From Anaeropeptidivorans aminofermentans (lineage in GTDB: Bacteria; Bacillota; Clostridia; Lachnospirales; UBA5962), in NCBI RefSeq assembly GCF_940670685.1, contig NZ_OW711693.1, positions 2,232,001-2,296,000 of the forward strand: a stretch of 64,000 bases of DNA. Direction: 5' to 3'. Below, in pieces: positions 40,763-52,827 of this stretch; the first letter of the stretch is position 1; each line of letters opens with the position of its first letter. The translations under genes and the position numbers were made by a program. Below the pieces are notes generated by a model, which saw only the letters and a program-made list of their open reading frames with translations, was not told the DNA's origin and searched no databases.

Positions 40763-42244
40763 TTAGGAAATGCCAAGACCAGCGCTGGCATAGCCTGCGA
40801 TAGCGGCTGCTATATCAAGACCAGCCGTAACTTCTGCAGAAAATACTAAAAGTAATCTGGTTCCTGCGGTAACAGGAATATTCAGTCCTGTAGTAACACC
40901 GCTGCTGACATCTCCAATAGAAATTAATCCCGTGAGGGGTGGCGCCAGCGTAACCACTGCGCCCGGCACTGCAACAAAGGTATCATTAGGTGTTGTAGAC
41001 TGGAATAACTGAGCGGATACCGTTACAGTCGATCCAATTAAACTTAGTCCAGCACTAATGCTCAAATAACCAGCCAAGGAAGTGATAACTCCATCCCTAG
41101 GTACGGAGAATGCAAGGTTTGTAAGTCCAAGCAGACTGATTGTACCGCTGGCAGCAGCGATTCCTGGAAGGTTAAGTCCGAATCCAATAGCGCTGGAGGT
41201 GTTAAGCAGTCCTCCTAATACAGTGCTCAAAGCAACCGGTGTACCAGATGCAAACGGAATAATTGCTCCTTCACCTGCCGGACCGGTTGGGCCAGTCGGG
41301 CCGGTTGGGCCTGTCGGGCCAGTTGGGCCAGTTGGGCCTTCAAGACCTGCTGCTCCCGCTGGGCCTGTAGGACCGGTTGGGCCTTCAAGACCTGTTGCTC
41401 CCGCTGGACCGGTTGGGCCTGTAGGACCAGTTGGGCCGGTAAGACCTGCTGCTCCCGCTGGACCAGTTGGGCCGGTGGGGCCTTCAATACCTTGAAGTCC
41501 CTGAGGACCTTGTGGGCCTGTCGGGCCTTCTGGACCTACTGGGCCTTGGAGTCCTTGAGGACCTTGCGGACCGGTTGGGCCTTCTGGGCCTGCAGCGCCT
41601 GCGATACCTTGAGGGCCTTGGGGACCTGTCGGGCCTTCTGGGCCTACGGGGCCTTGGAGTCCTTGAGGACCTTGCGGACCGGTTGGGCCTTCTGGGCCTG
41701 CGGCTCCTGCCGGACCTACCGGGCCTTGGGGACCTGTCGGGCCTTGAGCTCCCTGCGGGCCTGCCGGGCCTTGGAGCCCCTGCGGGCCTTGGGGGCCTAC
41801 CGGGCCTTGGGGACCTTGGGGGCCTACCGGGCCTGCTATACCTTGAGGACCCTGTGGACCTTGGGGACCTGTGGGGCCTGCCACACCTTGAGGGCCTGTT
41901 GGGCCTTGAGGACCTTGAGGGCCTTGCGGGCCTACCGGACCTTGAGGGCCTGCCGGGCCTTGTGCACCCTGTAGGCCTATTGGGCCGGTTGCTCCTTGCG
42001 CACCTTGCGGGCCTTGGGGACCTTGGGCTCCTTGGGGACCTTGCGGCCCCTGGGGACCTTGCGGGCCTTGCGGACCTGTGGGGCCTGTGGGGCCGCCAGC
42101 CGGGCCAGTGGGGCCTGTTGGGCCGGTTATTCCATAGCAGCAACATGTTTGTCTCCTGCAAGCACAGGAGTAATTAAGGGAAAACAATCCATTATTTGAT
42201 CCGTTGCATGTATTATTTTGATTTGAATTGCAATTGCAGCTCAT
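40763..42244 (-). CDS. Collagen-like exosporium glycoprotein, BclB-type
   Basis: 493 residues. Residues 1-38 are Asn/Cys-rich, with many cysteines (RRQTCCCYG) that could cross-link the protein to the spore surface. Residues about 39-326 are an uninterrupted Gly-X-Y collagen-like region, mostly GPQ, GPT, GPA and GAA triplets, the Thr residues being likely O-glycosylation sites. The last 165 residues form a Gly/Leu/Thr-rich beta domain starting [17 protein letters not shown] that matches the BclB C-terminal domain of Bacillus and clostridial exosporium proteins. AGGAGG precedes the ATG. Expression late in sporulation is expected, but I could not identify a convincing sigma-K promoter. Confidence 0.92.
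41270..42125. repeat. Collagen-coding tandem repeat region
   Basis: About 95 nine-base Gly-X-Y codon units with higher-order repeats of roughly 36-90 bases (for example recurring [20 protein letters not shown]-type blocks). It is far more GC-rich than its surroundings and is a likely site of repeat-number variation between strains. Confidence 0.85.
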
Positions 42245-44332: not shown

Positions 44333-45241
44333 TTATTCTATAATACCTGTTATGTCTTTTATATCTTTAATATGACACTCGTCCATATAATTTATAATTC
44401 CTGAAAGGATTTCTTCCGTAACCATAGGATTCATGAAATTAGCTGTCCCTACGGAAATCATAGAAGCCCCTGCCATGATAAATTCAATAGCGTCCTCCCA
44501 GTTGGAAATCCCTCCCATGCCTATGATAGGAATCTGAACAGCCTTTCTTACCTGATAAACCATGCGAACTGCCACGGGCTTTATGGCGGGGCCCGAAAGG
44601 CCTCCCATTTTATTGGCTAAAACGGGCTTTCTTTTATGAATATCTATCCGCATGCCGAGAAGGGTATTGATTAGTGAAATAGCGTCTGCTCCGGCGGATT
44701 CCGCTGATTTTGCAATTTCAGCAATGTCTGTTACATTAGGGCTTAATTTAACGATTAAGGGCTTTGTAATCACTTTTTTAATTTCTCCTACTACCTTTTC
44801 AACCATTTCCGTATTGGTGCCAAAGGTAATTCCCCCCTGGGATACATTAGGGCAGGAGATATTAAGCTCCATCATATCGATATCTGCTTCGTTTATTATT
44901 TTTGCAACCTCAGCATATTCTTCTACTGTATGGCCGCATATATTGACGATAATTTTCGTATCAAACTGCCTTAAAAAAGGAATATCGTTTTTTATAAACT
45001 CATATGCCCCGGGGTTTTGAAGGCCTACAGAATTCAGCATACCGCCGTAAGTTTCCGCTGCCCTTGGAGAAGGGTTCCCTAGCCAAGGCTCAGCAGAAAC
45101 TCCCTTTACCGTAACAGAGCCAAGATTATTTAAATCAATGAAATCAACAAATTCTCTTCCTGAGCCGAAGGTTCCTGAGGCTGTTCCCACAGGATTTTTA
45201 AATGTAACATCAGCGATAGTAACAGATAAATTCCTATTCAT
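44333..45241 (-). CDS. pyrD: Dihydroorotate dehydrogenase B (NAD+), catalytic subunit
   Basis: FMN-containing catalytic subunit converting dihydroorotate to orotate, working with the PyrK electron-transfer subunit. Start set at the ATG at 45241 (302 residues) because AAGGAGG lies nine bases upstream; upstream in-frame ATGs would run far into pyrK. Motifs: NPVGTASGTFGSG, ELNISCPNVSQGG with the class 1B active-site Cys, LSPNVTDI and IGMGGISNWEDA. Overlaps the pyrK end by eight bases. Last gene of the operon. Confidence 0.97.
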   Translation of the reverse strand: MNRNLSVTIADVTFKNPVGTASGTFGSGREFVDFIDLNNLGSVTVKGVSAEPWLGNPSPRAAETYGGMLNSVGLQNPGAYEFIKNDIPFLRQFDTKIIVNICGHTVEEYAEVAKIINEADIDMMELNISCPNVSQGGITFGTNTEMVEKVVGEIKKVITKPLIVKLSPNVTDIAEIAKSAESAGADAISLINTLLGMRIDIHKRKPVLANKMGGLSGPAIKPVAVRMVYQVRKAVQIPIIGMGGISNWEDAIEFIMAGASMISVGTANFMNPMVTEEILSGIINYMDECHIKDIKDITGIIE

Positions 45242-46022
45242 CCCAGAAAACCTCCTTTGATAAAAATACAGGCCCATCCTTGCAGACCTTTTTATATTCA
45301 TAGCCTACAGAAGAAGCATTCTTTATTTTTATGGCACAGCATACGCAGGTTCCGAAGCCGCAGGCCATTCTTTCCTCAAAGGAAAGATAGGCGCCTATAT
45401 TTTCTTCCTCTGCGTAAGAGGCTATAAATTTAAGCATAATACTTGGGCCGCAGGCATAAATAATGTCGGCTTTAAAGCCTGAATTTTTAAAACATTGGAG
45501 CGCGTTTCCCTGAAAGCCCATAGAGCCGTCGTCTGTTGAAATATGATTTTCTATCCCTAAAGCCTTAAATGCTTCTTCAAGAATCACATGGTCTTTTGAC
45601 CTGAAGCCTGTAAATACTTCTATCGTATTATTTTCCTCTGCAATCAACTTTTTGCTAAGCTCCAAAAGGGGCGGAACCCCTACCCCTCCGCCGATAACGG
45701 CGATGTTTTTTCCTTTTTCGGGCATAAAACCGTTTCCGAAGGGGCCGGATATTCTTATGGTGCTTTCGGAAGGGATGAAAGACATTTCCAAAGTGCCTTT
45801 TCCGGCTATTTGGTATATGATTCTTAAAATGCCTTCTTCTTTATTGATTTCACATATGCTGATGGGCCTCGGAAGAATCAAGTCTTTCCTTTCAAGATAA
45901 ATGTTTATAAATTGTCCTTCATGGGCAGCTTGCGCTATTTCCGGGCAGTAAATATACATATCATATATTTTTAAGGCTATTTCCTTATTTTCAATAACCT
46001 TTGCAAAAGTATACTTTTTCAT
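45234..46022 (-). CDS. pyrK: Dihydroorotate dehydrogenase electron-transfer subunit
   Basis: 262-residue ferredoxin-reductase-like protein that passes electrons from PyrD to NAD+. FAD-binding RPISICEI, NAD-binding GGGVGVPPLLEL and YACGPSIMLK, and the 2Fe-2S ligands in CGFGTCVCC followed by a distal Cys (KVCKDGPVF). Ten bases after carB. Its presence marks the class 1B enzyme. Confidence 0.97.
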   Translation of the reverse strand: MKKYTFAKVIENKEIALKIYDMYIYCPEIAQAAHEGQFINIYLERKDLILPRPISICEINKEEGILRIIYQIAGKGTLEMSFIPSESTIRISGPFGNGFMPEKGKNIAVIGGGVGVPPLLELSKKLIAEENNTIEVFTGFRSKDHVILEEAFKALGIENHISTDDGSMGFQGNALQCFKNSGFKADIIYACGPSIMLKFIASYAEEENIGAYLSFEERMACGFGTCVCCAIKIKNASSVGYEYKKVCKDGPVFLSKEVFWDE

Positions 46023-46031
46023 TCTCCACCT

Positions 46032-49000
46032 CTAGCGGCCAATGGGGTATATATCTACACCGTCTGCCGATATTTTCTTTTCCATCACTCTTAATACAGC
46101 TTCTACCGTATCTAATGAGGTCATAAGCTTTGTTCCGCCTTCGATTGCGGCTCTCCTGATTCTAAAGGCATCGCTGTTGATGTCGTTGCTTTTTGAAGGA
46201 ATATCCACTACGAAGTCTATGATTCCGCTTCTGATAGTATCCAAGATATTGGGAACGCCTTCTCCTATTTTCTTCACTGTTTTTACGTCAATGCCTGCTT
46301 CCTGCATGGTGTTTGCAGTTCCCTCCGTGGCTATGAAATTACAGCCCAAGGCTTCAAACCGCTTTGCAAGAGGAATAAAGTTCTTCTGTTCTCTTCTTCT
46401 TAAGGTAACGAGGATATTGCAGTTTTTTTCGGGTATTTTCATGCCGGAACCGACAAAGCCTTTATAAAACGCCTCTTCAAGGGTCTTGCCGATGCCTAAA
46501 ACCTCTCCTGTTGAACGCATTTCAGGTCCTAAAGTAGCTTCAACCTGCGGAAGCTTCTCCGTTGAGAAAACAGGGACTTTAACCGTTACAAAATCAGGCT
46601 CTTTATAGATTTCAGTATTGTAGCCAAGGTCTTTAAGCCTTTCGCCAAGCATAACCTTTGTCGCAACCTCTATAATGGGAACCCCTGTAACCTTGGAGAT
46701 ATAAGGAACTGTTCTTGACGAACGAGGGTTAACCTCTATAATGTAAAGCTCGTTTTCAAACTCTATAAACTGAATATTAATCATGCCCATAACTTCAAGG
46801 GCTATGGAAATATCCGCAGTAACCTTTAATATTTTATCCTTCATTTCCCGAGAAATGCTTTGGGGTGGATAGATGGAAATACTGTCTCCTGAATGGATTC
46901 CCGCTTTTTCAAGGTGTTCCATGATTCCCGGGATAAACACGGTTTCTCCGTCGCATATGGCGTCTACCTCGATTTCTCTTCCGCCTAAATACCGGTCAAT
47001 GAGAACGGGGTTTTTGCTATCCTTTATAAAAGCGTCTTTTAAATATCTTGTAAGCTCTGATTCCTCATAGGTGATTTCCATACCCTGGCCGCCAAGAACA
47101 TAGGAAGGACGCACCAAAAGCGGGAATGTAAGCTCCTTTGCGATTTTAAGGCCCTGCTCAAGATTCCATACGCCTTTGCCTTTCGGACGGAGGATATTGA
47201 GTTTTTCAAGAAGTTCATCGAATTTTTCCCTGTCTTCTGCCGTATCGATTTGGTCCGGCTTTGTTCCGTAGATGGGAATGTTCATTTCTTTAAAGAAATT
47301 GGCAAGCTTTATTGCAGTCTGGCCGCCGAACTGCAGTATAACACCGTCCGGCTTTTCCTTTTGAACTACATTTAAAACATCTTCTTCCGTAAGAGGCTCA
47401 AAGTAAAGCTTATCGGAAATGTCAAAGTCTGTGCTTACGGTTTCCGGGTTATTATTTACGATGATGGTTTCGATACCCATTTTCTTAAGGGCAAGAACAC
47501 TGTGTACGGAGCAGTAGTCAAATTCTATCCCCTGACCTATTCTGATAGGGCCTGAACCGATTACCATAACCTTCTTTTTATCCGTAATTTTCACTTCGTC
47601 CTCAAAGTCATACGTGGAATAATAGTAAGGAGAAACGGCTTCAAATTCTCCGGCACAAGTGTCTACCATTTTATAAACAGGGTTTACATTGTATTTTTCT
47701 CTAAGGGCATATATTTCCTTAGGGCTGCATTTTAAAAGGTTTGCCATGCCCTTATCTGAAAAGCCGATTTGCTTATATACTCTTAAAACTTCCTCATTGA
47801 TATCAGAAAGCTTCATTTCTTTCAGGGCTTCTTCCATATCGATGATATTTTTTATTTTTCTGATGAAGAAAGGGTCCATACCGGTAATCTGGCATATTTT
47901 CCCTACACGGTAATTTCTTCTGAGCATTTCCGCAAGATGGAAAAGCCTTTCATCGTCCGGCACCTGAACCAGTGCCTTAAGTTCTTCCATAGTTTTATCC
48001 CGCGAGGATTTTAAATCAAAATTATACTGGCCTATTTCAAGAGAGCGTATGCCCTTTAAGAGGGCTTGCTCAAGGCTGTTTCCGATGGCCATAACTTCTC
48101 CTGTTGCCATCATTTTTGTTCCTAAGGTTCTTTTGGCAAGGCTGAATTTATCAAAAGGCCATTTGGGTATTTTTAAAACCACATAGTCTACCACAGGCTC
48201 AAAGCAGGCAAAGGTTTTTCCTGTTACGGCGTTTTTGATTTCATCAAGGTTATATCCCAAGGCAATTTTAGCCGCAACCTTTGCTATGGGGTATCCTGTG
48301 GCCTTTGAAGCAAGAGCCGATGAGCGGCTTACCCTTGGGTTTATTTCTATAACAGCATAATTAAAGCTTTCAGGGTCAAGGGCAAACTGAACATTACAGC
48401 CCCCTTCTATTTTGATGGCGTCAATTATTTTAATGGCGGAGGTTCGAAGCATTTGATATTCTTTATCTGAAAGAGTTTGTGCCGGAGCTACGACGATGCT
48501 GTCTCCCGTATGGACGCCTACAGGGTCGATGTTTTCCATGCTGCACACGGCGATGCAGTTTCCGGCACCGTCCCGCATAACTTCAAATTCAATTTCCTTC
48601 CAGCCTTTGATGCTTTTTTCTATAAGCGCCTGATTTACGCGGCTTAATTGAAGGCCAAGGGTGAGTATCTCTCTAAGGTCGTCGCTGTTTTCCGCAATGC
48701 CGCCGCCGGTGCCCCCTAAGGTATAGGCTGGGCGTATGATGACGGGATAGCCTATTTTTTCCGCAAAGCTAAGACCGCTTTCTACATCTGTCACGATTTC
48801 AGATTCAACGATAGGCTCGTTAATTCTTTCCATAAGCTTTTTAAAGCCGTCTCTGTCTTCTCCTTCTTTAATGCCTTCGATAGAGGTTCCGACAACTCTT
48901 ACATTATATTTATCCAGAATGCCGCTGTCATAAAGCTCGCAGGAAAGGTTCAGGCCTGTCTGGCCTCCCATACCTGCAATAAGAGAATCAGGACGTTCTT

Positions 49001-49238
49001 TTGCAATTACCTTTTCAACGAATTCTATATTTAAAGGCTCTATATAAGTATAATGGGCAAGGCCTGCATCTGTCATGATGGTTGCGGGATTGCTGTTTAT
49101 AAGGACTACCTCTACCCCTTCTTCTTTTATGGCCTCGCAGGCCTGAGTGCCGGAGTAGTCGAATTCGGCGGCCTGGCCTATTACGATGGGGCCTGAGCCT
49201 ATTACAAGAACTTTTTTAATACTTATGTCTTTAGGCAT
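46032..49238 (-). CDS. carB: Carbamoyl-phosphate synthase, large subunit
   Basis: Makes carbamoyl phosphate for pyrimidine (and arginine) synthesis. 1068 residues with two homologous ATP-grasp halves (each beginning KVLVIGSGP or KVMVIGSGP and carrying GGTGGG / GGQGM loops), the oligomerisation domain in between, and a C-terminal MGS-like allosteric domain (about 930-1068). Its start overlaps the end of carA by eight bases. Location within the pyr operon suggests it serves UMP synthesis first. Confidence 0.99.
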
Positions 49239-50319
49239 TTTTATTTCCCCCTTCAGCTATGATTTTAAGAAAATCATCGAATATAAAGCCTGTATCAAGC
49301 GGCCCCGGTGAAGCCTCCGGGTGAAACTGCACGCTTGAAACCGGAAGACTTTTATGACGGATACCTTCTAAAGTATTATCGTTTACATTTACCCATGAAG
49401 CCATAACCTCTTCTGAGAGCTCTGACACTACAAATTCATGGTTCTGGCTTGATATGTAGCATCTTCCTGTTTCAAGGTTTTTAACCGGGTGATTGCCGCC
49501 GTGATGGCCGAATTTCATACGCTCTATTTTGCAGCCGAAGGCTATGGATAAAAGCTGGTGGCCTAAGCAGATACCTACCACCGGCCTAAGGTTCACAAGC
49601 TCCTTGATGTTTTCTATTACCTGCGGAATATAGTAAGGGTCTCCCGGGCCGTTGGAAAGGAAAATGCCGTCGGGATTTACTTTAAGTATTTCCTCAACCG
49701 ATGAAAAGGCGGGAAATACCGTGAGCTTGCATCCTCTTTTCTTTAAAGATTCAAGAATACCTCTTTTTATGCCGAAATCAATCACCGCTAAATGAAGGCC
49801 GTTCCCTTCTATGGTGTAAGCTTCCTTTGAGGTAACCTGAGATATAACGTCTATATTTGAATAAGAGTCAAATTTCTCCTTTAAATATTCTTCCGTAAGT
49901 TCTTCATTGTCTATGGCAATAATGGCTTTTGTGGTTCCGTTGTTTCTTAAAAATCTTGTTAATGCCCTTGTATCTATGCCTTCTATAGCCATGATTTTAT
50001 TTTGTTTTAAAAATCCTTCAAGCTTTATCTCACAGCGCCAGTTATTGGGATAATCGCATTTGCTTCTTACCACAAGGCCTGAAAGATGCGGTTTTTCCGC
50101 TTCCATATCTTCAAGGTTTATCCCGTAATTGCCTATAAGAGGATAAGTCATGCATACAATCTGGCCTGCAAAGGAGGGGTCTGTAAGGGTCTCCTGATAG
50201 CCTGTAAGGCCTGTTGTAAAAACAATTTCCCCTACCGTATCTTTGATATGCCCGAAGGCATATCCGTTAAATGTAGGGCCGTTTTCCAGTATAAGCTTCG
50301 CTTTTATATTTTTATCCAT
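49231..50319 (-). CDS. carA: Carbamoyl-phosphate synthase, small (glutaminase) subunit
   Basis: Class I glutamine amidotransferase subunit supplying ammonia to CarB. 362 residues from the ATG at 50319, chosen because GGGGAGG lies eight bases upstream; an upstream frame extension from 50364 overlaps pyrF. Catalytic Cys in [10 protein letters not shown], His/Glu in [11 protein letters not shown]. The N-terminal CPSase small-subunit domain begins [16 protein letters not shown]. Confidence 0.98.
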
Positions 50320-50339
50320 GTTGTAAACCTCCCCCCTTC

Positions 50340-51275
50340 TTATAAAATGTGAATAAACTGGCAAATATCCTCTTGCATATCTATAACCGCCTGTCGGGAT
50401 GCCTTGGCAAATTCCTTTTCGGTAAAGTCATTTTTATATTTATCGTTTTTATAGGCGGCTATGATTCCTCTTGAGCTGTTAACGATTGCTCCAAGGCCGT
50501 TTTCATTGAAGCATACGGCTAAATCCTCCGCTTTTCCCCCTTGGGCTCCGTATCCCGGAACAAGGAAAAATACAGTCGGCATAATCTCTCTTAATCTTTT
50601 TGCCTGATCTTTGTGGGTTGCGCCAACGACTGCTCCTATGCTTGAAAAGCCGTGTTTTCCGATTAAATCCCCGCCCCATTTTGATACAAGGCCCCCTACG
50701 ATTTCATGAACAGGCTGGTTTTCAACTATTAAATCCTGTATTTCGCCGCTGTTGGGGTTGGATGTTTTCACAAGGACGAAAAGGCCACTTTCGTTTTCCT
50801 TGCAGTCTTCTATATAGGGCTCTATTCCGTCATATCCTAAATAAGGATTTACTGTAATAAAGTCGGAATTAAAAACCTCGTCTTCCATATGCCCTATTTT
50901 TACTTTTCCGATATGGGCTTTGGAATAGCATTTTGCAGTAGAGGCAATATCTCCTCTTTTTACGTCTCCTATTACAATAAGGCCCTTTCCCTTGGCATAC
51001 TGGGTAGTCTTTATATAAGCGGCGACACCTTCTGCCCCGAACTGCTCATACATGGCTATCTGTGGTTTTACGGCAGGTATGAGGTCGCAGACATGATCTA
51101 TTATTTCCATATTGAATCTAAGGATTGCTTCCGCAGCGCCTTTCGTAGTACAGCCGTAAGTTTCAAACATTTCATTTTTAAGGTATTCAGGAACAAAATC
51201 CAGCTGAGGGTCAAGGCCTACTACCGTAGGGTTTTGAGTTTCTCTTATTTTTGAAATCAGCTTATCTATAATCAT
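50340..51275 (-). CDS. pyrF: Orotidine 5'-phosphate decarboxylase (type 2)
   Basis: Final step to UMP. 311 residues, longer than the classical type 1 enzyme and typical of the type 2 PyrF found in Clostridia and Actinobacteria. NPTVGLDPQLD at the N-terminus, the catalytic Lys/Asp cluster in VIGDVKRGDIAST, and LVPGYGAQGG as the phosphate loop. Between pyrC and carA. Confidence 0.97.
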   Translation of the reverse strand: MIIDKLISKIRETQNPTVVGLDPQLDFVPEYLKNEMFETYGCTTKGAAEAILRFNMEIIDHVCDLIPAVKPQIAMYEQFGAEGVAAYIKTTQYAKGKGLIVIGDVKRGDIASTAKCYSKAHIGKVKIGHMEDEVFNSDFITVNPYLGYDGIEPYIEDCKENESGLFVLVKTSNPNSGEIQDLIVENQPVHEIVGGLVSKWGGDLIGKHGFSSIGAVVGATHKDQAKRLREIMPTVFFLVPGYGAQGGKAEDLAVCFNENGLGAIVNSSRGIIAAYKNDKYKNDFTEKEFAKASRQAVIDMQEDICQFIHIL

Positions 51276-51314: not shown

Positions 51315-52610
51315 TTATTTATAAAAATGCAATTCGTAATTATAAACTTTTATATTACCTGAAACAATAAGATGCTTTACTCTGCCCTTTACCTTAAGGC
51401 CGTGAAAGGGGCTGTTCTTTCCCTTGGACTTAAAGCTTTTAACGTCTATTTCATACTCATTTTTATAATCTATAATGGCGATATCCGCCGCCATGCCTTC
51501 GCTTAATTTTCCTTTGTTAAGCCCTATAACTTTCGCGGGGTTAACAGTCATTTTTTCTATCAGCTCATAGGCAGTTAATATACCTTTATTCACAAGATTT
51601 GTTACCCCAAGAGGAAGCGCTGTTTCAAGACCTACAATGCCGTTTGCGGAAGCCTTAAAGCCTTTATTCTTCTCATCTTCATGGTGGGGGGCATGGTCTG
51701 TTGCTATTACCTCTATGATGTTTTCTTTAAGGCCTCTGATAATAGCTTCCATGTCTTCTCTGCTTCTTAAAGGAGGGTTCATTTTATAATTTCCGTCGTC
51801 TGAGGGTATGTCCTCGTCACAGATGCTGAAATGATGGGGAGTTGCTTCGGCTGTTACCTTTGCCCCTCTTTTTTTAGCATCTTCTATGATATCAACGCAG
51901 CCCTTTGTACTCATATGGCATAAATGGAGCCTTGCCCCTACACTTTCTGATATTATGATATCCCTGGAAACGATTACCTCTTCGGAAGCGTTGGATATGC
52001 CTCTTAAATTAAATTCCTTTGATTTAATGCCTTCGTTTATAACGCCGCCGTCAACCAAATCAATATCTTCACAGTGGGAAAACATAGGCAAATCATTTTT
52101 TACGCATTCTTCAAGAGATTTTTTCAGAAGAAGAGAGTTCATTACGCTGTAGCCGTCTTCGCTTATGGCGCATACACCGGCTTCCTTAAGCTCTTTCACA
52201 TCTGTAAGCTCTTTGCCTTGCTGGCCCTTTGTGGCGCTTCCTATGGACAGAATATTTACTTTTGCCTTTTCTGCTGCTTCTTTATAAATCTTTCGAACCA
52301 CTTCTTTGCAGTCCGTTACAGGCTTTGTGTTAGGCATTGCGCATATGGTGGTAAATCCGCCTATGGCAGCGGCATTTGCCCCCGTTTCAATTTCTTCTTT
52401 ATACTCAAGTCCGGGGCTTCTTAAATGAACATGCAGGTCTATAAGCCCGGGAGTAACCCAGTTTTCAGAAGCATCGATTATGGTTTCCGCGTTGAATTCA
52501 AGACTTTTGCCGACTTTTTTTATTATTCCGTCCTCTACAAAAATATCAAGAATTTTATCCAAGCCGTTTCCCGGGTCAATCACATGCCCGTTTTTAATTA
52601 AAATGCTCAT
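51315..52610 (-). CDS. pyrC: Dihydroorotase (class I)
   Basis: Zinc amidohydrolase closing carbamoyl aspartate to dihydroorotate. 431 residues, class I type. Metal ligands in LIDLHVHLRSPG, further His in HCEDID and HLCHMST, and Asp in IATDHAPHH. First structural gene after the attenuator; AAGAAGGGAAGGG serves as ribosome site. pyrB and pyrE are not in the window. Confidence 0.97.
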   Translation of the reverse strand: MSILIKNGHVIDPGNGLDKILDIFVEDGIIKKVGKSLEFNAETIIDASENWVTPGLIDLHVHLRSPGLEYKEEIETGANAAAIGGFTTICAMPNTKPVTDCKEVVRKIYKEAAEKAKVNILSIGSATKGQQGKELTDVKELKEAGVCAISEDGYSVMNSLLLKKSLEECVKNDLPMFSHCEDIDLVDGGVINEGIKSKEFNLRGISNASEEVIVSRDIIISESVGARLHLCHMSTKGCVDIIEDAKKRGAKVTAEATPHHFSICDEDIPSDDGNYKMNPPLRSREDMEAIIRGLKENIIEVIATDHAPHHEDEKNKGFKASANGIVGLETALPLGVTNLVNKGILTAYELIEKMTVNPAKVIGLNKGKLSEGMAADIAIIDYKNEYEIDVKSFKSKGKNSPFHGLKVKGRVKHLIVSGNIKVYNYELHFYK

Positions 52611-52633: not shown

Positions 52634-52669
52634 AAAAAAAACAATAAAAATAGTAATTTTTATTGTTTT
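52634..52669 (-). terminator. Attenuator: intrinsic terminator between the pyr leader ORF and pyrC
   Basis: AAAACAATAAAAAT (52638-52651) pairs perfectly over 14 bp with 52656-52669 across a four-base loop and is followed on the minus strand by a T run. No gene ends here in the usual sense: it lies between the operon promoter and pyrC, and the stop codon of the leader ORF is inside its 5' arm. Confidence 0.9.
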
Positions 52670-52761
52670 AGTAAGATTCTTATATAATTATCAATAGAAA
52701 CAAAGGGGACTTTTTCAAATCCAGAAGTATATATATCGCTTATCTTGTCTATATAAAACAT
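52660..52761 (-). CDS. pyr operon leader peptide, 33 residues
   Basis: ATG at 52761, TAA at 52660-52662, with an AAGGGGG ribosome site eight bases upstream and a good promoter about 30 bases before that. The peptide starts MFYIDKISDIYTSGF and ends NYIRILLKQ; it has no known domain and no run of one regulatory amino acid. Its last codons and stop are inside the 5' arm of the attenuator stem, so a ribosome finishing the ORF would prevent terminator folding. By analogy with E. coli pyrBI, slow transcription of U-rich RNA at low UTP would let the ribosome keep up and cause read-through. Inference from architecture. Confidence 0.75.
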   Translation of the reverse strand: MFYIDKISDIYTSGFEKVPFVSIDNYIRILLKQ

Positions 52762-52798
52762 CTTTTGAACCCCCTTCGATTTTCTACACACTTTATAT

Positions 52799-52827
52799 AG
52801 TCTATCATCAAAAATAAGACTTGTCAA
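52799..52827 (-). promoter_or_regulatory. Promoter of the pyr operon
   Basis: TTGACA (52822-52827), 17-base spacer, TAGACT (52799-52804) on the minus strand. Start of transcription expected near 52792. Confidence 0.85.

Follow-up and report, generated by a model that had tools for sequence, protein, structure and literature searches.

A putative leader-peptide attenuator with a concealable ribosome-binding site precedes a clostridial pyr operon that lacks PyrR

The window analysed here, a stretch of 64,000 nucleotides from Anaeropeptidivorans aminofermentans, encodes an operon for pyrimidine synthesis on the minus strand. Its first gene is pyrC, encoding dihydroorotase (51315-52610; TIGR00857 above cut-off). 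The rest of the operon (44333-51275) comprises pyrF (50340-51275), carA (49231-50364), carB (46032-49238), pyrK (45234-46022) and pyrD (44333-45301). pyrF, carA and pyrD score above their NCBIfam cut-offs, carB was named from its sequence without a family search, and pyrK finds its best matches, below the cut-offs, among dihydroorotate dehydrogenase electron-transfer models. The genome is a single contig of 3.76 Mb. Its unlinked pyrB (L139, G000:C1:1738134) is preceded by one hairpin, and the leader scan found no leader ORF there. A second pyrB-pyrC pair of the same genome (L168:13777-16004) lies 3' of lspA and a gene for an RluA-family pseudouridine synthase, and the relative G005 carries a block of similar gene sizes (L169).

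The original prediction had placed a promoter, a ribosome site, a 33-codon ORF and a perfect 14-bp terminator before pyrC, and all four are present on the minus strand. The promoter (52799-52827) reads TTGACA-17-TAGACT with an extended -10 TG; the -35 element lies at 52827-52822, the spacer is 17 nt long and the -10 element ends at 52799, with promoter-like sites in the surrounding 14-kb stretch being overall not above shuffled sequence (38 vs 35.3). The Shine-Dalgarno sequence (SD) GAAGGGGG (52770-52777, minus strand), assigned from sequence and fold, is followed by the leader ORF MFYIDKISDIYTSGFEKVPFVSIDNYIRILLKQ (52660-52761, minus strand), which starts with ATG at 52761 and ends with TAA at 52662-52660. 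The candidate attenuator terminator (52634-52669, minus strand) consists of a 14-bp hairpin with arms at 52669-52656 and 52651-52638, a 4-nt loop and a TTTT tail reaching 52634. As had been claimed, the TAA sits in the 5' arm of this hairpin; from there it is 49 nt to pyrC. The stem is perfectly paired (-10.3 kcal/mol, z -6.3) and none of 200 shuffled sequences equalled it in folding. Only one of the 14 pairs is G-C, hence its termination efficiency is unsure and it is absent from our consensus terminator scan, which needs three G-C pairs. The leader peptide, as read from its sequence, has six scattered Ile codons and LL as its longest run. Amino-acid attenuation was rejected, because the peptide has no codon run for one amino acid.

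A second predicted hairpin hides the leader SD. Its 5' arm (52770-52787, minus strand; paired at 52787-52781 and 52778-52770) holds the SD, and its 3' arm is an anti-SD, GUCCCCUUUGUUUCUA (52694-52709, minus strand), part of a pyrimidine tract within the leader ORF and supported by the fold and by co-variation among 27 leaders. The SD region (52791-52670) is predicted to fold at -24.5 kcal/mol with the SD in the 5' arm. As the transcript emerges, the SD would stay mostly open (unpaired 0.60-0.84) up to an emerged end at 52706, dropping to 0.18 at 52703 and 0.01 at 52700. This amounts to a change from 0.76 early to 0.01 late (shuffled 0.32) in predicted folds, which assume a 5' end 30 or 45 nt before the ATG. 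A motif search also located a TTNTTT sequence (TTGTTT; 52698-52703, minus strand), a NusG-type pause motif, inside the anti-SD tract.

PyrR is not detectable in this organism. The leader had been said to hold no PyrR-type sequence, and indeed neither RF00515 nor any other Rfam family matches in the window at gathering scores. Elsewhere in the genome neither pyrR nor its binding motif was found: the best match to PyrR (NF003549) reaches 41.8 bits against a cut-off of 138, and RF00515 gave no match, with 52 of 1016 first-look candidates scored. Control of the operon by PyrR and RF00515 was rejected on these grounds, the leader also having no PyrR loop. Within a sample of 236 genomes of the order, 58 encode PyrR at E <= 1e-50 and 178 do not. 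Order and family names were inferred from named loci, mostly Lachnospiraceae. None of the genomes in family f12 and one of seven in f1 (G001) has PyrR.

We show here by sequence comparison that the overlap of leader ORF and terminator recurs in relatives. The anatomy is repeated before pyrC in the Defluviitaleaceae MAG Lab288P1bin59 (L002 = L089), where TTGACA and TATAAT precede the leader, the hairpin is nearly identical and PyrC is 60% identical. G005, the nearest relative with such a leader and apparently the genome of this MAG, has a promoter, an SD, a 35-codon ORF and the same A/U stem, its stop falling where the loop begins. For a wider survey, 101 leader segments before pyrB or pyrC were collected, of which 79 were picked by gene position before their leaders had been seen, though with a weighting to families where such leaders were already known, and 22 afterwards. 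The latter are the window, 12 earlier pyrC or pyrB loci and nine of 14 further stretches; the five left out (G038, G050, G009, G004 and G001) showed no leader ORF. An ORF was counted if it was preceded by an SD, spanned 10-90 codons and ended in the hairpin. A terminator was detected in 76 of the 101 segments and 57 of these 76 had a qualifying ORF, compared to about 7.9 expected from shuffles, some of the 57 probably being chance matches or gene tails (G072, G131, G089, G132). The position-chosen segments alone gave an ORF at 40 of 54 terminators, including 21 of 23 in f12.

In PyrR-less f1 and f12 taken together, 27 of the 29 terminators of pyr leaders have an ORF, where shuffles predict about 2.4; setting aside six previously inspected leaders leaves 21 of 23. 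In f12 it was found at 24 of 26 terminators (2.0 expected), that is before pyrB-pyrC in 24 of 29 segments; three of the missing segments have no terminator (G143, G151, G181) and two no ORF (G127, G234). In f1 it was found at all three terminators (0.4 expected), all three belonging to the 22 inspected segments. f17 (6/9 terminators) and f2 (9/16) show the ORF as well, and no terminator was found in the four f6 segments and the one PyrR-less f9 segment. As a control, 76 other terminators located 5' of genes in the window, 80 named loci and L168/L169 were scored, and 16 had such an ORF, among them at least two pyrC leaders (L047, L057). The difference between 27/29 and 16/76 is large (Fisher 8e-12), with the reservation that the leaders compared share descent and are not independent. 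A CAAU..AUUG core occurs in 50 of the 76 leader terminators, across all families, and the hairpins of relatives, in the same place and with a T tail, mostly have more G-C pairs than that of the window. The leader is not universal in the order: it was not seen in the f1 genomes G004 and G001, the latter PyrR-positive, and by eye from the pyrC upstream regions of L053, L055, L101 and L103, in whose genomes no PyrR was found. Comparison of relatives thus bore out a conserved stop in the hairpin combined with a fast-changing peptide: from genus to genus almost the whole peptide is different, but the ORF keeps its position before pyr genes and its stop. In close pairs substitutions fall at all codon positions, and the pooled pN/pS of 0.47 (ungapped pairs) hints at some constraint on the peptide.

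Relatives with PyrR have a related leader. The canonical PyrR loop was seen in 27 of 35 PyrR-positive segments; five of the other eight, all from f24, had been cut at pyrC rather than pyrB and proved on re-examination to carry the loop, the remaining three being G062, G134 and G084. It was also seen in two of 66 PyrR-negative segments (G170 and G207, from genomes 92% and 73% complete). An SD-preceded ORF ending in the hairpin was present at 17 of 27 PyrR-positive terminators. In these leaders the PyrR loop (for example GGTCCAGAGAGGCC) lies directly 5' of the leader SD, and the peptides often start with MRDIGAFFY or similar. Fifteen PyrR-positive segments were re-examined, and in ten an ORF begins 26-34 nt downstream of the first base of the loop and runs through the hairpin, its stop lying 3-51 nt beyond (seven at 3-11 nt). 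In one of the other five the ORF ends before the hairpin (G115), and four have none (G147, G155, G184, G043). The loop likewise adjoins the SD of a leader ORF that reaches or passes the terminator at the PyrR-positive loci L213-L217, L148, L146, L150, L226-L228, L159 and L161. PyrR in these relatives may act by blocking leader translation: bound to the loop it would cover the leader ribosome site, leader translation would stop and transcription would terminate. Several families of the order share this kind of leader, of which the window seems to have a PyrR-free version.

The SD-hiding hairpin, which the original prediction had missed, separates PyrR-less from PyrR-positive leaders. Co-variation was assessed by pairing each SD with every ORF and taking the residual of the cognate pair after removal of row and column means. 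In 27 PyrR-less leaders of f1 and f12, six of them from the 22 segments inspected beforehand, this residual is -2.41 kcal/mol (p < 5e-5), and 20 dissimilar leaders among them give -2.71 (p < 5e-5). Seventeen PyrR-positive leaders, one of them a misplaced segment (G089), show no co-variation (+0.24, p = 0.71), and in the six leaders of f17 it is weak (-1.69, p = 0.047). The signal comes from the final 40 nt of the ORF before the hairpin (-2.45); neither the first 15 codons (+0.21, p = 0.72) nor the 19 nt preceding the SD (-0.01, p = 0.48) show any. Two controls were weakly positive, the leader SD with the first 60 nt of the gene (-0.55, p = 0.03) and the gene SD with the ORF (-1.03, p = 0.01), and thus relatedness contributes to the signal. 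In the window the SD-tract duplex is predicted at -15.1 kcal/mol (z -1.73), its own SD ranking 5 of 27. Predicted folds agree with a late closure: over the 27 leaders the SD is unpaired at 0.74 early and 0.19 late (shuffled 0.33), 21 of the 27 falling below their own shuffled mean. In the other six, G005 included, the late SD is no more closed than in shuffles (0.29 vs 0.25 in G005). PyrR-positive leaders give 0.42 early and 0.36 late. Two leaders outside the co-variation set, from genomes in which no PyrR was found, gave opposite outcomes, L047 fitting the SD pairing (z -2.70) and L057 failing (z -0.09).

The region in front of the terminator is rich in U in PyrR-less leaders: over the 90 nt before the hairpin the U content is 0.43 in 40 PyrR-negative leaders vs 0.33 in 17 PyrR-positive ones. 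The tract of the window, CCCCTTTGTTTC, has a longest T run of 4 and a U content of 0.40 over 90 nt, and relatives have stronger ones. Of 33 PyrR-negative leaders from f1, f12 and f17, 24 have a TTNTTT whose first base lies 15-25 nt ahead of the hairpin, compared to an expectation of 7.6; at distances above 48 nt the motif occurs less often than expected. With 90 motifs in total vs 85.6 expected, only their position is unusual and not their number. The single TTNTTT of the window, at a distance of 34 nt from the hairpin, falls outside this enriched band, and at this predicted pause the SD would already be over half closed (unpaired 0.40). Aligned to chain 8ehq_G, which we take to be B. subtilis NusG, the NusG of this genome carries N opposite residue 81 and T opposite residue 82 (numbering counted by eye). 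A study on the B. subtilis protein states that TTNTTT is read by its residues N81 and T82 and that the motif alone is not sufficient (PMC12288461).

Taken together, we consider the leader to be, with somewhat better than even likelihood, a leader-peptide attenuator that is gated by closing of the leader SD, and in which the progress of polymerase through the pyrimidine tract reads UTP and CTP. A ribosome reaching the leader stop would cover the 5' arm of the terminator and polymerase would read into pyrC; with the ORF untranslated, the hairpin would form and transcription would end. Both the proposed block of the terminator by leader translation and its need for a free SD are suggested by the conserved anatomy. 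The gate would be the SD itself, open early and later closed by the tract near the end of the ORF, so that a ribosome would have to load before RNA polymerase clears the tract. The tract has a high content of U and C and a TTNTTT pause motif, and low UTP or CTP should therefore prolong the time in which the SD is open: polymerase would linger at the tract, the leader would be translated and the operon would be on. At high UTP the SD hairpin would close first and the operon would terminate. We infer termination, translation, pausing and the nucleotide signal from this arrangement. RNA polymerase outruns ribosomes in B. subtilis, and coupling of this kind would therefore be weakened unless polymerase pauses. 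More tentatively, and giving it slightly less than even weight, we suggest that RNA alone took over the job of PyrR, the SD acting as a timer that is closed by polymerase progress through a pause-prone tract, so that UTP and CTP would be read directly, and termination decided, by ribosome loading relative to the speed of transcription. Lineages of one order would then swap PyrR and timer on the same leader, some relying on PyrR to close the SD and others on the emerging tract RNA.

The closest known arrangement is that of E. coli pyrBI, where UTP-sensitive coupling of transcription and translation uses a translated leader ORF with U-rich stretches and a leader ribosome site that, on our reading of the model, is constantly open. 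Plain coupling of this type, with a ribosome always loading and UTP-dependent pausing at U-rich sites deciding the outcome, would turn the SD pairing into a by-product of a pyrimidine tract that faces a purine-rich SD. The U-rich ORF ends of PyrR-less leaders, the clustering of TTNTTT shortly before the hairpin and the stop within it would all suit this explanation. We nevertheless regard it as unlikely, because the co-variation of SD and tract goes beyond composition in PyrR-less f1 and f12 and is not seen in PyrR-positive leaders, and because the SD of the window is predicted to close. Another factor, protein or ligand, might replace PyrR and stabilise the SD-closing hairpin, in which case the sensor would be that factor or an aptamer and not the speed of polymerase. 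That the hairpin covers the very SD which in relatives is flanked by the PyrR loop fits such a substitute; the great differences in SD regions and ORF ends between genera speak against it, as do the lack of a common aptamer-like core (by eye, in the leader pieces compared) and of Rfam matches in the window, and we judge it quite improbable.

The two further alternatives dispense with attenuation of pyr genes. If the hairpin were too A-U rich to terminate, ORF and hairpin might tune the translation of pyrC or the decay of its RNA, in line with the single G-C pair and the failure of the terminator scan to pick up the stem. This is very unlikely, given that relatives keep T-tailed hairpins in this place, mostly with more G-C pairs, and that the 49 nt from leader stop to pyrC well exceed the peak of 15-16 bp given for leader-to-gene distances in Firmicutes (PMC4833913). 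A role of the leader as reinitiation enhancer was rejected because the distance to pyrC is too long. The pN/pS of 0.47 in close pairs could be expected of a small protein gene with its own terminator, unrelated to pyr control. We give this hardly any credence, as the ORF holds its place and its stop before pyr genes even though the peptides of different genera have almost nothing in common.

Attenuation gated by the SD, the reading preferred here, resembles several known systems in parts. With E. coli pyrBI it shares a pyr operon, a leader ORF that ends in the terminator region and, more clearly in relatives than in the window, U-rich stretches before it. The pyrBI geometry claimed in the original prediction stands in that the stop lies in the hairpin and recurs in relatives. 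It does not extend to the ribosome site, which in the window is hidden by the ORF tract in predicted folds, and the window also differs in phylum and in a terminator that is nearly all A-U. The proposed isolated convergence within Bacillota did not hold up, since many PyrR-positive relatives carry a leader ORF and terminator with the PyrR loop before the SD. These relatives share with the window a leader ORF running into or through the terminator before pyrB or pyrC and differ in the PyrR loop before the SD, the window having neither loop nor pyrR; the leader SD looks like the control point in both. PyrR attenuation of B. subtilis (RF00515) is similar in acting on a pyr operon through an intrinsic leader terminator, but neither PyrR nor RF00515 was found in the window genome. 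A proposal for the Thermus pyr leader combines PyrR with a leader peptide that would block the terminator on being translated; it is alike in the peptide and unlike in its dependence on PyrR. The B. subtilis tlrB leader is likewise a Gram-positive case of attenuation with a leader peptide, in which a pause that depends on NusG leaves time for the leader to be translated; it responds to tylosin and not to nucleotides (PMC12288461).

As of 2010, Naville and Gautheret knew of no leader-peptide system demonstrated beyond Proteobacteria and Actinobacteria other than ermC; their article went on to describe histidine leader peptides in bacilli (PMC2965389). A 2026 review still attributes the control of pyrimidine production in Gram-positive bacteria to PyrR (PMC13328217). 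The literature covered yielded no recognisable description of a clostridial pyr operon with a leader peptide, which supports novelty weakly because most subscription journals lie outside that coverage. With 178 of the 236 genomes lacking PyrR, the leader offers a testable answer to how pyr genes are controlled in some PyrR-less families. It also provides a case in which related genomes appear to work one step of a shared switch by a protein in some and by an RNA hairpin in others.

Two minor observations concern the sequence beyond the operon. Close to its 3' end, at about 44265-44230, lies a stretch beginning AGTAACAAAACCGTATAT that is similar to stretches at L139 and, in part, L153; occurring at several intergenic places in this genome, it is perhaps a small repeat. 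Further on, at 40763-42244, the window encodes a collagen-like protein with long GPTGPQ-type repeats.
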